Part shown: in pieces, positions 9,621 through 16,049 of the stretch
Position numbering within the stretch: position 1 is the stretch's first letter
How the letters are laid out: every line of letters starts with the position of its first letter
Source of the DNA: Labilithrix sp.
GTDB taxonomy: Bacteria; Myxococcota_A; Polyangia; Polyangiales; Polyangiaceae
Direction: 5' to 3'
Length of the DNA stretch: 64,000 nucleotides
Assembly (NCBI GenBank): GCA_019637155.1
Contig: JAHBWE010000003.1
Location: 186,001-250,000, forward strand
The notes under the pieces: generated by a model
What the model saw: the letters and a program-made list of their open reading frames with translations, nothing else
Databases searched by the model: none
Told to the model about the DNA's origin: nothing
Translations under genes and position numbers: made by a program

Positions 9621-9911
9621 GTGGACGACCAGCGACGCAGATGGCGACGTGCCTGCGGCGACGTTGGGCATCGCGTCCGCGAGCTGCGCCAGGCGAAGGG
9701 CTGGACGCAGGAGGACCTCGCGGAAAAGCTCGAGATCGAAGGGCGTGAAGTCCGGCGAATCGAGGCGGGCCGCAACCTGACGATCCGCGCTCTCGTGCGT
9801 CTCGCGGATGCGCTCAGCACGAACCTCCCGGATCTGTTTCAACCTCCGAAGTCGAGACCAAAGCGGAAGCCCGGCCGTCCGCCGAAGCAGCCCAGCGAAG
9901 GATCAACGTGA
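9621..9911 (+). CDS. XRE-family HTH regulator with an AT-hook-like tail
   Basis: 96 aa from a GTG. Residues about 15-70 are a Cro/CI HTH: LRQAKGWTQEDLAEKLEI, then REVRRIEAGRNLTIRALVRLADAL. The C-terminus (about 76-90) is basic and contains KRKPGRPPK, a match to the AT-hook core (GRP flanked by Lys/Arg). It presumably binds DNA and may act on the accessory genes around it. The fusion of an XRE fold to an AT-hook in under 100 residues is unusual. Confidence 0.8.
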   Translation: MDDQRRRWRRACGDVGHRVRELRQAKGWTQEDLAEKLEIEGREVRRIEAGRNLTIRALVRLADALSTNLPDLFQPPKSRPKRKPGRPPKQPSEGST

Positions 9912-9967: not shown

Positions 9968-10495
9968 TCAATAGCGGCTGCGTTGGAGTCGATCTTCTCC
10001 ACCGGCCGCAATGCTCTCGAAGGCGTTGTCGAGCGGAAGACATCCCAACGACCCTTGCCCGCAAGCGTGGCGACCGCATCGACTACGCGCTGCTCGAGTT
10101 CGTCATCGCGTCGTCCCTTCCAGAGACAGTCGGCCAGTGCGACGAGCAACTCCTCGATCGTCACCTCGGACTCGTCTCGCCACCGCGCATGGGGTCCGGC
10201 ACATTCGCGCGACGCGTTCGTCGACGCCGTGCCGAAGGAGGAGGGCACCACCATCATCTTCGTGGCGACGTCCGGATTGATCGAGCTCCTGCAGGGCCTT
10301 GCCAGCGTCGTGGAGCCGTGCGCCGAGACGAACGAGGCGACCATCGACGGCAACGAGTGTCATCACCGCGGCGAGGACCTCCTCCGCAGCTTCATCGACG
10401 AGCTCGCCGTGTCGGATCAGGCGCTCGGGAGCGCCGATCTCGCGCAGAATGGCCTCGGCTTCCTTGTCATGGATCTCCGATGCCGCTTGCCGCAC
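9968..10495 (-). pseudogene. HD-domain phosphohydrolase-like gene broken by two frameshifts
   Basis: Three frames must be joined to read one protein. Frame 1 (10495 down to about 10192) gives an HD motif in GARLHDAGKAL, then SGRRHEDDGGALLL and VDERVARMCRT. At the G-run 10191-10194 (C-run on the coding strand) one extra base shifts the frame; dropping it gives HARWRDESEVTIEELLVALAD. At about 10031 a base is missing; restoring it gives LDNAFESIAAGGEDRL and a stop at 9968. All three pieces match the expected order of small HD-domain proteins. Start is uncertain (GTG 10495). Decay or base-call error cannot be separated here. Confidence 0.7.
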
Positions 10496-11479: not shown

Positions 11480-11761
11480 CGCTTCTCCCGCGCGATGCCC
11501 GCTCCGGCGATCTGCTCTACAGCATCATCAGCCAACGTCACGAGAAGGCCAGCACCATCATCACGACGAACCTCGCCTTCAAGGACTGGGGCACCGTCTT
11601 CCCCGGCGCCGCCTGCGCGCCCCCTCGTCGACCGCTTCACCCAGCACTGCCACGTCCTCGACATCGACGGCGACTCGTGGCGACAACGGCACGGCGCGAA
11701 CGACGACCCCACCGACGCGAAGCCTCGCCCGCGCAGCAGTCGACCGAAGCGCCGTCGCTGA
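11480..11761 (+). pseudogene. IstB-like ATPase C-terminal remnant (IS21 family)
   Basis: Frame 1 (about 11491-11620) reads SGDLLYSIISQRHEKAS, TIITTNLAFKDWGTVF and PGAACA, the sensor-1 region (STIITTN) and following helix of IstB. After the C-run 11620-11624 the match continues one frame on as LVDRFTQHCHVLDIDGDSWR to a stop at 11761. The Walker A and B half of IstB is gone. So this is a truncated, frameshifted relic of an IS21 element. 11762-11973 holds nothing I can support. Confidence 0.6.
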
Positions 11762-11973: not shown

Positions 11974-13158
11974 CTACTTCGGATGAAACGGGCCTTGCGG
12001 ATTGGGCCGCTTTAGCTGGTAGACGGACGCGCCAAGATCGTAACGATCCTCGGAGTCGTCACTGTCCGAAGCTGCGGGCCTGACTGGCGTTTTCAGCTCG
12101 AACACTTCGACGTCGAAGCCGTAGTTCGAGACGTGCCGCGCCACCGCTTGCAGGAAGTCGATGCTTGGCGTCCCGCGCGGGATCAAGGAGCTCAACTCGC
12201 ATCCCGCGCGGGTTAGCGCCCAGGCGTCGAGTCGGACGGCGGCGTCTTCCCTTGGCCCTGTTATACGAATAGCCTTGTCGTGGAACGCTAGTACTCGCCG
12301 GAACTCGTCGGCGGGGCTCGCGTCGTAGGCGGAAACCCTGAACGAGACAGGCGACGGCGACAGAAGCCCCGCGTCCGCCAGTGCGAGCCCTTGTTCGAAG
12401 CTCACGGAGTCGCCTTCATCGCGGATGATGAGGGCCTGCTGGCTCGCCGGCCCGCACGTGTACGAGAGGATCTCGGAGAAGCTCTCGGCCTCGGCCTGGG
12501 AGAGCTTCTTCAGAGTCTCGAGCGTCCGTATGTGGAACGATCGCGGCCGTTTCACTTCTCCGGCTAGGACCTTCGCCCAGATCTTTCGCATCTGCCCGTT
12601 CGAGACGTCCTGGACGTCGTTGAAGAAGCGCGCTGTCCAGTCGTCGTCCACGCGCTCTTCCGAGATCTCAGCGTCGGGAACGTCCTTCAGCTCCTCGGCG
12701 GCCTCGTGGATCACGCTCTCCACATTGTGCTGACGCTTCGCCTCCTGGTACATGAGGCGCGCCTCAGCTCTCGCCGGCAGTGCGGGAAGGTCGTCGAACA
12801 CGACTTCGACGGCGAGCGCCTCGTCCGCCCTCGGCAGGGCGAGGTCCGGCGCGGCGGGGAGAGTCCTCGGCGGTGGGGCGAGCTCGGGGGCTGGAAGGTT
12901 GGGCACGGTGGGAGCCGCGTGAGATGCGCTCGGACGCGGGGGCGGCGCTTCGGCCGCCTCCCGCATTTGGCGGACCTCGATCGCGCCAGCTTCGAGGATC
13001 TTGTCGGCCTTTGCCTTCGCCTGGGCGTCCCGGACGGTGAGCCACGGGCGTGCGACCGCTCCGACGCCGCTCTGCGCCACCTCAAGCAGCTTCTTCGCCG
13101 CGACACCACCGCCGAGGGCGGTGAGCGCGACGGCACCTAGCGTGATCGGATCCGGCAT
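11974..13158 (-). CDS. DUF2806-like protein
   Basis: 394 aa. An Ala/Gly-rich N-terminus (ALTALGGGVAAKKLLEVA) and a coiled segment (40-70) lead to a Pro-rich linker (72-110), then a conserved core at about 176-220: ARFFNDVQDVSNGQMRKIWA followed by KVLAGEVKRPRSFHIRTLE. The 'WA+ILAGE..PGSFS.RTL' pattern is the hallmark of DUF2806-type proteins, whose function is unknown. The C-terminus carries an acidic stretch. It is the last gene of the three-gene cassette; its Shine-Dalgarno region is a perfect 10-bp tandem duplication (13165-13184). No enzyme motif is seen. Confidence 0.65.
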   Translation of the reverse strand: MPDPITLGAVALTALGGGVAAKKLLEVAQSGVGAVARPWLTVRDAQAKAKADKILEAGAIEVRQMREAAEAPPPRPSASHAAPTVPNLPAPELAPPPRTLPAAPDLALPRADEALAVEVVFDDLPALPARAEARLMYQEAKRQHNVESVIHEAAEELKDVPDAEISEERVDDDWTARFFNDVQDVSNGQMRKIWAKVLAGEVKRPRSFHIRTLETLKKLSQAEAESFSEILSYTCGPASQQALIIRDEGDSVSFEQGLALADAGLLSPSPVSFRVSAYDASPADEFRRVLAFHDKAIRITGPREDAAVRLDAWALTRAGCELSSLIPRGTPSIDFLQAVARHVSNYGFDVEVFELKTPVRPAASDSDDSEDRYDLGASVYQLKRPNPQGPFHPK

Positions 13159-13164
13159 GGTGTT

Positions 13165-13184
13165 CCCCTCAGTACCCCTCAGTA
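13165..13184 (-). repeat. Tandem 10-bp duplication carrying the ribosome binding site of the DUF2806-like gene
   Basis: On the coding strand TACTGAGGGG occurs twice head-to-tail just before AACACCATG at 13158. Each copy has a GAGGGG Shine-Dalgarno core; the proximal one is 6 nt from the ATG, the distal 16 nt. This is a local slippage product that keeps one well-placed site. Confidence 0.85.
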
Positions 13185-13197
13185 CGAGTTGAGCGCT

Positions 13198-14076
13198 TTA
13201 CTTCAGGGCCTTGTACGACTCGACGAGGAACACGATGTTGCTCGCGGCCAGGTGCATCGCGTACGCGGCGAGGTGATCGGGCACGTCCCGCGGCGTGGCG
13301 CCCGCACCGTGCCCGCCGTTCTTGTTCCGGACGGTTGCGACGCCGATGAGGCACTTGTCGAGGCTCTTTAGCTGCTCCTCGCTCCACAGCGGCACGAGCC
13401 CGTTCTTCAGGACGGTCGCGATCAGGGCGCTCGCCGTCGCGTTCTTGTCGACGTCCCACTTCTTCTTCGCGCAGATCACCTTCATCGTGCTCTCGAAGGC
13501 CTTGCAGGCGTCGGTGATCGCCTCCTCCTGCCGGCCTTCGCGGAAGTGCTTGTGCGCTGACAGGAACTCCTTGTTGGCACTCTCGAAACTGGAGGTTGCC
13601 AGCAGGGTCAGCGCGGGGATTACGGCTTCTGCGTGGAGCAGCTGTGAGTCCACCCGCACGATCTGGCCATTCACGTATTCGTATCCAACTCCGTGCATGC
13701 GGAAGCGCTGGTTGAGCTCGGCCACCGCATCAACAGCCTTCTGCGGCGTGAACGCTTGCTTCATGACGACTCCGATGACGCGAAAGCACCACTCGATCAT
13801 GTCGAGAGTTCGAACCGTATCTTGAGTCTGCAGAATATAGTTTAGCCCTGCGTCCTTCGAGTGCTCGTACTCCTCTCCAGGAAGGTGGACTAGCCCATGC
13901 TCCTTTGCGATTTGCTTGTTGAGACGGGGCCATCCTGTGCCGTCCGCGAAATGGCGATCGAGCAAGTCGTCAACGAGGTGCATGACTTGCACGCGTAGCG
14001 CATGTGGAAGCGCCTCGTATTGGAAGACGTCGGGAAGCGGCTTGTGCCGGTTGGAGAAGAGATTGAGAATTCCCAT
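13198..14076 (-). CDS. STM4504/CBY_0614-like protein with abortive-infection (Abi_C-like) C-terminus
   Basis: 292 aa from ATG 14076 (MGILNLFSNRHK); the frame to 14115 adds an unlikely leader. The N-terminus (LPDVFQYEALPHALRVQVMH) matches the family start I recall as STM4504/CBY_0614. The middle is helical (FLSAHKHFREGRQEEAITDA, then KAFESTMKVICAKK). The end has VRNKNGGHGAG, the R-N-x-x-G-x-HG pattern of the Abi_C domain, a HEPN-like fold in which R-x4-6-H can be a ribonuclease site. A toxic RNase role is thus possible but not shown. It stands 39 bp upstream of the DUF2806-like gene. Confidence 0.6.
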   Translation of the reverse strand: MGILNLFSNRHKPLPDVFQYEALPHALRVQVMHLVDDLLDRHFADGTGWPRLNKQIAKEHGLVHLPGEEYEHSKDAGLNYILQTQDTVRTLDMIEWCFRVIGVVMKQAFTPQKAVDAVAELNQRFRMHGVGYEYVNGQIVRVDSQLLHAEAVIPALTLLATSSFESANKEFLSAHKHFREGRQEEAITDACKAFESTMKVICAKKKWDVDKNATASALIATVLKNGLVPLWSEEQLKSLDKCLIGVATVRNKNGGHGAGATPRDVPDHLAAYAMHLAASNIVFLVESYKALK

Positions 14077-14195
14077 GGTTGACTGCCTAGATCTCTGGAA
14101 GGTGGGCGCGGCCATCGGCGCGCCACACTATTGAGTCGAAATGTGATCAAGCGCACGGACCGTCAGTGGCCGCTCGCGTTCAGGCCTCTATTTGA

Positions 14196-15071
14196 CTATT
14201 TGAAGAGGTCCATCTGCGCCTCCGCCTTCATCTTCTTCGGGCGGTACGCGTCCATCAGCCCGAACGTGGTCTGGTGGTTGTGGAAGGTGCCGAGGAAGAG
14301 GAAGACGTCGCGCTTGGCGAGGTCGAACTCGGCCTCCATCTGCGCCAGCGCCTTCCCGTCGCGGTCCGGGTCCCCCTTCTCGACCATCTTCCGATAGCCC
14401 TCGTGGATCGGCCACGACTTCAGGCTCATCCTGTGCGGCTCCGTGCAGCGGGAGTCGTTGCAGCGGAACCAGACGATGAACTCCGCCTCGGGGAATGCGA
14501 TGCGCTTCGGCGGACGGACGAACTCGAGCGTCTTCTGGCTGAGGAAGGTGCTCTCCGTCGCAAGCCACTCCTGGCGCTCCTCCTCCGTGCGGCGGCGGAC
14601 CTTCACGTCGACGATCTCCTTCGGCACGACGATGCCAAGAGACGTCTTGAAGCGGCGGTTGAGATCCTGCAACTCCTCCACCGAGGCCGCCATGCTGGGC
14701 GACGTCTCGACGTACGAGCGGCGGCGGGTCTGCTCCTTCGCCGCGATCACGTCGAGCGGCTCGACAGTGCGGAAGTCGACGCGCATGCTCTCGGGCCGCG
14801 GGTCGTGCCTGTTGTGCTGCCACCGCACGCGAGCGCGTTGGAAGGTGCGGAAGTCGTTCTCCTCGTCGAGGTAGCGCTTCGGCAGTGGGTGGATGCGGAC
14901 GAGGCGCTTCGTCTCCTCGTCGATCGCCCCGGTGCACACGAGCTCCGTGTACTTGTTCGAGTACGCCGGGTACGTCATCCCGAGGATCAAGATTTCGGCG
15001 ATGCGCCAGGTATCGAGGTCCGCGAGAGAGTTAGGAGTGCGTTTGATCAGTCCTGTGGTAGCTTCGCTCAA
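14196..15071 (-). CDS. Conserved-looking protein of unknown function, first gene of the cassette
   Basis: 291 aa, soluble. It starts with a short helical lead, then a beta-rich segment ILILGMTYPAYSNKY, then ELVCTGAIDEETKRLVRIHP and LPKRYLDEENDFRTFQRARV. A Cys pair (FRCNDSRCTEPHRM, about 210-220) sits in the C-terminal half next to a WPIHEGYR motif and a final helix (AKRDVFLFLGTFHNHQ). The sequence reads as a genuine, evolved protein with conserved aromatic and basic positions, but I do not recognise the family. A nucleic-acid or nucleotide role is possible because of its partners, but this is inference. Confidence 0.7.
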   Translation of the reverse strand: MSEATTGLIKRTPNSLADLDTWRIAEILILGMTYPAYSNKYTELVCTGAIDEETKRLVRIHPLPKRYLDEENDFRTFQRARVRWQHNRHDPRPESMRVDFRTVEPLDVIAAKEQTRRRSYVETSPSMAASVEELQDLNRRFKTSLGIVVPKEIVDVKVRRRTEEERQEWLATESTFLSQKTLEFVRPPKRIAFPEAEFIVWFRCNDSRCTEPHRMSLKSWPIHEGYRKMVEKGDPDRDGKALAQMEAEFDLAKRDVFLFLGTFHNHQTTFGLMDAYRPKKMKAEAQMDLFK

Positions 15072-15527
15072 GGTCTTGTTCTCCTGGCAAGGTGGACGGG
15101 CTCATCCGGGCTGGAGGTGGCTGGAATCACCTCTGGCCCTTTTTCTGTTCAGTCCCCCAAGGAAGTGCCTGGGATCGTCGGCCCCGTCAAGGGTGCGGGG
15201 CTCGGGCCGGGCGAGAGGAGCCGAACGTCGAGTTAGGGGTACTCCCTCCGGACGCGCTTCGCCAGTCCATCTCGGCGTTTTGTTTCGGGGCGAAACAGCC
15301 GGAAATCCGCTGCTTTTAGACAGTGAAAAGGCTGTGGGAAAGTGGTGTGAATTGGTCTGGGGACAACCTGGGGTCGCACCCGAAATTTCGCCGTGTGATC
15401 GGGCGCGTCCGGACGGTGCCTGTGGAGAACGTGGAAGTGGTGCGGGGGTTCAGCGTCCCTGACATTTGCTCAGGCTTTCCCACGGGTAACACGCTGTCCC
15501 TCGCCCTCTTGTGACGCGTTCGGGACG
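15072..15527. other. 456-bp gene-free stretch with three DnaA-box-like 9-mers
   Basis: No supported gene. Three same-strand 9-mers resemble the inverted DnaA box TGTGGATAA: TGTGGGAAA (15333-15341, two mismatches), TGGGGACAA (15358-15366, two) and TGTGGAGAA (15421-15429, one). A 9-bp inverted repeat, GTGGGAAAG (15334-15342) and CTTTCCCAC (15475-15483), brackets them. This could be a relic of a plasmid or element replication region or chance. The open frame 15323-15514 has no convincing coding character. Confidence 0.35.
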
Positions 15528-16049
15528 ATGCCCCGCTTCGGAATCCAGGACTGGCGCGCCCCGCAGCTCCCCGGCCTCGACGAGCCCGCCGCCCCCGGCG
15601 CGTCGCCCGTCCTGCTCCCGGAGAAGATGCGCGCGGCGTACGTGAAGATCCGCAAGACCTTCGACAACACCCGGACGGTCCGGGAGTTCGCGCCGTACGT
15701 CGAGCTGGTCGAGGAGCTGCGCGACGCCGTGCTGATAGAGTTGGCGGAGCAGGGCGTCACCGTCGGCCCGTCCGTCGCGATGGTCGTCGACGCCGCTTTG
15801 CGCCAGGACATGTGGAGCCGGTTCGAGCGCGCGTTCAAGCGCCGCAAGAAGAGGATCCGCACGCCGAAGACGTCGCGCGGCGTCCGAACGGTGAAGCGAG
15901 CCGCCTGCTCGAGACCACCGAGCTCTCCGTCACCGAAATCGGCTATGCGTGCGGCTTCGCGGACACAGCCCACTTCAGCCGTCGCTTCAAGCGACGGGTG
16001 TCGGGCGGCTGAACAATTCCCCGCGTACAGCTCCTGGGAGCACTCTTGA
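15528..16049 (+). CDS. Hypothetical protein with an out-of-frame foreign tail
   Basis: 173-aa frame. The first about 120 residues look genuine: FGIQDWRAPQLPGLDEP, then KMRAAYVKIRKTFDNTRTVR, EFAPYVELVEELRDAVLIEL and a basic run KRRKKRIRTPK. From about 15890 the remaining residues (Ser/Pro/Arg-rich) are the wrong-frame translation of an AraC HTH fragment, so the natural C-terminus has been replaced. I do not recognise the front part. Confidence 0.45.
   Translation: MPRFGIQDWRAPQLPGLDEPAAPGASPVLLPEKMRAAYVKIRKTFDNTRTVREFAPYVELVEELRDAVLIELAEQGVTVGPSVAMVVDAALRQDMWSRFERAFKRRKKRIRTPKTSRGVRTVKRAACSRPPSSPSPKSAMRAASRTQPTSAVASSDGCRAAEQFPAYSSWEHS
15890..16012 (+). pseudogene. AraC-family HTH C-terminal fragment
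   Basis: In the frame ending at 16012 the sequence is RLLETTELSVTEIGYACGFA, then DTAHFSRRFKRRVSG: the second HTH of AraC/XylS regulators (VTEIAYxCGFxDxSHFSRxFKRxxG). The first HTH and the sensor domain are missing. It is a 3' remnant left by rearrangement. Confidence 0.7.

Follow-up and report, generated by a model that had tools for sequence, protein, structure and literature searches.

Three families that have been linked with phage defence come closest to the locus analysed here. Abi-alpha is a prophage-encoded protein causing abortive infection through premature lysis, known from prophage 6 of E. faecalis V583, and the DUF2806 family (PF10987) has been named as similar to it (PMC6356687). 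The AbiJ-NTD4 domain was defined on CBY_0614 in the 2013 HEPN survey, in which AbiJ-type proteins were proposed to be phage-triggered suicide RNases (PMC3710099). PDC-M19 is a PADLOC phage defence candidate composed of M19A, a DUF488 protein, and M19B; a literature search on this term found no paper, the system having candidate status only. Likewise, the searchable literature yielded no phage assay for either the M19B-like family or the STM4504/CBY_0614 family that are considered below.

A stretch of 64,000 nucleotides from Labilithrix sp. (hereafter the window, meaning the whole of the DNA that was analysed) carries three intact minus-strand open frames, gene 1 being followed by gene 2 and then by gene 3. 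Gene 1 (14196-15071, 291 aa, TTG start) encodes a PDC-M19B-like, predicted OB-fold nucleic-acid-binding protein. Gene 2 (13198-14076, 292 aa) encodes a member of the STM4504/CBY_0614 family with an AbiJ-NTD4 domain and a probable C-terminal HEPN domain, and is a predicted RNase. Gene 3 (11974-13158, 394 aa) encodes an Abi-alpha-like DUF2806 protein, a putative effector. Each of them thus falls in a defence-linked family (PDC-M19B, AbiJ-NTD4/HEPN and DUF2806, respectively), in partial support of the initial annotation, which had proposed a candidate three-gene, possibly defensive, cassette; that cassette can hardly be called undescribed, all three families being already catalogued. The locus is probably best explained as two independent abortive-infection-type modules stacked together, one made of genes 1 and 3, and the other of gene 2, wedged between them.

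The three frames are present at these coordinates with family matches beyond chance, as annotated. The minus-strand spacers measure 119 nt between genes 1 and 2 (14077-14195) and 39 nt between genes 2 and 3 (13159-13197). An AGGAG motif lies upstream of gene 1 and a GAGGGG motif upstream of gene 3. The second spacer holds a tandem duplication of GTACTGAGGGG at 13159-13190 (minus strand), which duplicates and supplies the ribosome-binding site of gene 3, and which could be the joint where gene 2 went in. No match to a single sigma-70-type operon promoter was found, the 119-nt spacer included. A terminator-like hairpin (15108-15139, plus strand, 13 pairs followed by TTTTT) stands just upstream of gene 1 on the opposite strand, although counts of such hairpins in the window are not above those of shuffled sequence. 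The GC contents of genes 1, 2 and 3 (0.64, 0.60 and 0.66) are somewhat below that of the window (0.70), with values at codon position 3 of 0.93, 0.80 and 0.80, respectively. Approximate dN/dS ratios against the homologues of a sister species are 0.41 (gene 1), 0.28 (gene 2) and 0.36 (gene 3), and such values below 1 across species show purifying selection on all three genes, in support of the initial view that their intactness reflects selection.

The flanks were described at the outset as a defence-island setting with an XRE gene, a recombinase and IS relics. An XRE-type HTH gene (9621-9911, plus strand) and an IS21 IstB relic (about 11485-11610) are indeed present, together with an AraC HTH relic (15812-16012), but no recombinase was found in the flanks. 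A possible relic frame at 10103-10495 (minus strand) gives a weak HD-domain match (8e-4, below the cut-off).

Neighbourhood searches bear most directly on the unity of the cassette. The three genes were found together at no locus other than the window, and no second genome with the trio turned up among the 284 to 379 genomes sampled from the phylum, where the families are rare and scattered. Gene 1 loci were counted as distinct loci with at least 700 bp of flank on both sides; at none of these 76 loci, except the window, does gene 2 lie near gene 1. Gene 2 itself is represented by 26 further distinct proteins, none of which has gene 1, gene 3 or a DUF488 gene beside it. Furthermore, no DUF2806 gene was detected in 20 genomes with gene 1 homologues, no gene 1 at the other DUF2806 loci examined, and no further pair of genes 1 and 3 in 379 genomes of the phylum. 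Because the trio is absent from every other locus and genome surveyed, an outcome that the initial annotation had itself named as grounds for giving up its cassette, the three-gene unit is rejected. The corresponding mechanism, a single defence operon in which gene 1 senses while the HEPN RNase of gene 2 and the product of gene 3 act jointly, draws on the shared strand, the short gaps, the intactness of all frames and the effector-like character of both gene 2 and gene 3. The same strand and short gaps do count against two modules, being also compatible with such an operon; nevertheless, the survey and the arrangement in the sister species make a single operon highly improbable.

That arrangement was found in a Myxococcales metagenome-assembled genome (locus L113, MKVQ01000003.1), where a gene 1 homologue (67% identical) is followed on the same strand, after a gap of 96 bp, by a gene 3 homologue (44% identical), with no gene 2 between. 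Genome G368, assigned to the genus of the window genome, carries this same locus, and appears to be the same assembly as the genome L113 was taken from (G284). At the DNA level, two stretches that lie within genes 1 and 3 are about 75% identical to the window, and the similarity stops short of the flanks. The 38 kb around the pair in G368 contain matches to terminase, portal, tail sheath, tape measure, baseplate, integrase and DNA polymerase genes, and the pair therefore lies in a prophage. The gene 2 homologue of the sister species (57% identical) is located on a separate contig, without gene 1 or gene 3 alongside. Since the sister species joins genes 1 and 3 and keeps gene 2 elsewhere, the former are read as a prophage-borne pair and the latter as an independent module, the pairing being known from two species of one genus. 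This adjacency had escaped the initial annotation, as had the missing DUF488 partner that is discussed below.

This context raises the question of whom the pair serves. Rather than providing general host defence, it may act for the prophage itself, in superinfection exclusion or lysogeny control, an explanation that overlaps with the two-module one. Such a role would agree with the prophage location in the sister species, with the prophage origin of Abi-alpha, and with Gordonia phages, in which PDC-M19B and a DUF488 gene adjoin the immunity repressor, close to the integrase. Against it, many gene 1 relatives are located on plasmids and chromosomes, and the window bears no trace of the sister-species prophage beyond genes 1 and 3, the only parts that match, which also rules out that the window is a remnant of that prophage. 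Service to the prophage is thus possible, if somewhat unlikely.

Gene 1 was initially annotated as an unrecognised protein with a Cys pair. The Cys pair exists (C204-x4-C209-x3-H213), only part of the family retaining it, and the invariant Cys of the family is C46; "unrecognised" was wrong, because PADLOC has a PDC-M19B model (PDLC04508), which matches gene 1 at 9.4e-34 over residues 26-281 of 291. A match to phrog_25907 was also obtained (1e-30), and none to Pfam. Nine columns do not vary among 66 gene 1 sequences, and the window gene keeps all of them. An AF2 model built with these 66 sequences, as had been suggested for 14196-15071, is confident (pLDDT 91.4, pTM 0.88) and OB-fold-like. In the PDB, its Foldseek matches with E <= 0.001 (3e-5 to 1e-3) are to OB-fold nucleic-acid-binding proteins, namely RPA, baculovirus LEF-3, the Oxytricha telomere end-binding protein, RADX and HIN-200 domains, and LEF-3 ranked top in a separate Foldseek search of a viral structure library with the same model. 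As TM-scores are low (0.20-0.35) and the domain packing differs from that of the matches, the claim is limited to an OB-fold-like protein of no specific family. The RPA/LEF-3/HIN-like model suggests that gene 1 may be a nucleic-acid sensor. Sequence-profile searches against the PDB gave nothing useful for genes 1, 2 or 3.

The usual partner of gene 1 is a DUF488 gene, typed by PADLOC as PDC-M19A, which lies within 300 bp in 71 of the 76 loci. It is upstream on the strand of gene 1 in 37 of them, downstream and convergent in 32, and downstream on the gene 1 strand in 2. Five loci depart from this pattern, namely the window, L113, L116, L132 and L126, the last with its DUF488 gene 2.9 kb off. 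No DUF488 was found in the window by tblastn of 62 DUF488 partner proteins, and none was detected in the window's own genome with PF04343 (assembly 97% complete). A partner hidden near gene 1 as a diverged DUF488 gene or a pseudogene is rejected too, the tblastn search having risen above noise only at the XRE HTH (9660-9851). The HTH of this XRE gene resembles (tblastn 2.9e-5) the one at the N-terminus of a fused HTH-DUF488 protein (L004), itself the partner of a gene 1 relative on a Streptomyces plasmid. In the temperate Gordonia phage Nymphadora (L028, 3980-5277), the DUF488 gene that accompanies PDC-M19B carries the annotation "HipA toxin".

In a tree of the family, the window and L113 group together (support 100) within a six-member clade (support 100), where the remaining members either have DUF488 (L032 and L114) or lack it (L115 and L116). 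Both are therefore nested in a DUF488-partnered family, and the simplest reading is the loss of a DUF488 partner present in the ancestor and the acquisition of DUF2806. Neighbours of the gene 1 relatives in L114 (4182-5979) and L115 (1789-2559) contain R-x4-H motifs that were read by eye as HEPN-like; as a new type of partner they were discarded, with no above-cut-off Pfam support.

The loss can be read differently, gene 1 being the surviving half of a PDC-M19 system that has broken up, and the trio a set of as yet undecayed passengers without joint function. The flanks are rich in relics, and a partner retained by 71 of 76 relatives is found neither nearby nor in the genome. However, all nine invariant columns are kept and the dN/dS ratios are 0.28-0.41; a second species also has a DUF488-less gene 1 beside gene 3, and other relatives persist without DUF488 (L116, L115 and L132). 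Orphaned cargo is, on this evidence, distinctly unlikely, and the two-module explanation is retained.

With 115 bits, gene 3 clears the Pfam gathering score of DUF2806 (24.5), in agreement with the DUF2806-like assignment made initially. Its match to Abi_alpha (PF14337) is below the cut-off (14.4 vs 29 bits, E 0.039), and four of 14 members of its family also match Abi_alpha, with a best E-value of 6e-6; judged by sequence, gene 3 is a relative of the Abi-alpha family and not a member. The structural model (pLDDT 75.4) consists of a long N-terminal helix, a helical core and an alpha/beta C-terminal part, and this weak model gave no fold match in the PDB. IMG/VR scans with gene 3 retrieved no relatives. 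On the E. coli IncX4 plasmid pCDF8 (L027, 3800-7612), DUF2806 annotations flank the mcr-1 insertion on both sides, which suggests that a DUF2806 gene was split there by the mobile segment for colistin resistance.

For gene 2, the initial assignment to an STM4504/CBY_0614-like protein ending in an R-N-x-x-G-x-HG motif held well. NF046078, the NCBIfam model of this family, matches the protein over its full length (288 bits, cut-off 150), and its domains are AbiJ_NTD4 (PF18863, 6e-24) and DUF7014, with a match to PF22809 at 1e-34. PF18863 is present at the N-terminus of all 24 relatives. The HEPN score of gene 2 itself (PF05168) is 17.0 bits, below the cut-off of 22, Abi_C being also sub-threshold; among the 24 relatives, five match PF05168 (best 1.6e-5) and four match Abi_C (best 2.8e-5). 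The motif R250-N251-x4-H256-G257 fits the HEPN pattern R-x4-6-H (R250-x5-H256), and its conservation in the 24 homologues is complete for H256 and G257, and 23/24 for R250. A C-terminal HEPN fold is thus favoured by sequence comparison, and the RNase-like effector of the initial annotation corresponds, by family, to an AbiJ-type HEPN protein with a predicted RNase role.

What the analysis itself shows is the family assignments, the adjacency of genes 1 and 3, the independence of gene 2, the lack of a DUF488 gene next to gene 1, the conservation of the HEPN motif, dN/dS values below 1 between species and an OB-like predicted fold. The triggers, the effector action and the defence role that we infer for the three genes can be set out for each module. 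In the first, the OB folds of gene 1 would bind nucleic acid exposed by the phage, for example ssDNA or RNA; gene 1 in its nucleic-acid-bound state would then switch on gene 3, which would kill or prematurely lyse the infected cell, as Abi-alpha does. In the second, the N-terminal domain of gene 2 would keep the HEPN RNase inactive until the enzyme is freed by a phage product, whereupon RNA would be cut and the cell would stop.

A stronger proposal is that genes 1 and 3 make up a novel abortive-infection system of two components, prophage-carried, with an RPA/HIN-like OB-fold sensor and an Abi-alpha-like effector exchanged for DUF488; it is put forward tentatively, and we hold it to be rather doubtful. 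The parts are known; the new elements are a PDC-M19B/DUF2806 pair that lacks DUF488 and the interpretation of PDC-M19B as an OB-fold protein, and the novelty claim is limited, since the pair comes from two species within a single genus. Even so, a catalogued candidate, PDC-M19B, gains a testable biochemical role, nucleic-acid binding via OB folds, and is linked to an Abi-alpha-like effector. The suggested exchange of partners (DUF488 for DUF2806) would help to tell the sensor half from the effector half. The locus also calls for caution, in that defence genes with short gaps on the same strand are not necessarily one operon-level system.

Compared with the described systems, gene 2 shares with the STM4504/CBY_0614 family the AbiJ-NTD4 domain, the R/H motif and the full length, its C-terminal HEPN domain being probable, and differs only by its context: the family is stand-alone in the other loci examined, whereas gene 2 lies between two genes. 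Like Abi-alpha (DUF4393/PF14337), which is prophage-encoded, the DUF2806 gene is inside a prophage in the sister species; however, Abi-alpha has 272 aa, whereas gene 3 has 394 aa, belongs to PF10987 and is paired with gene 1. Finally, gene 1 is a clear M19B homologue, but while M19A normally adjoins M19B in PDC-M19, the window gene has no adjacent M19A, and in the sister species it is the DUF2806 gene that comes after gene 1 in place of DUF488.
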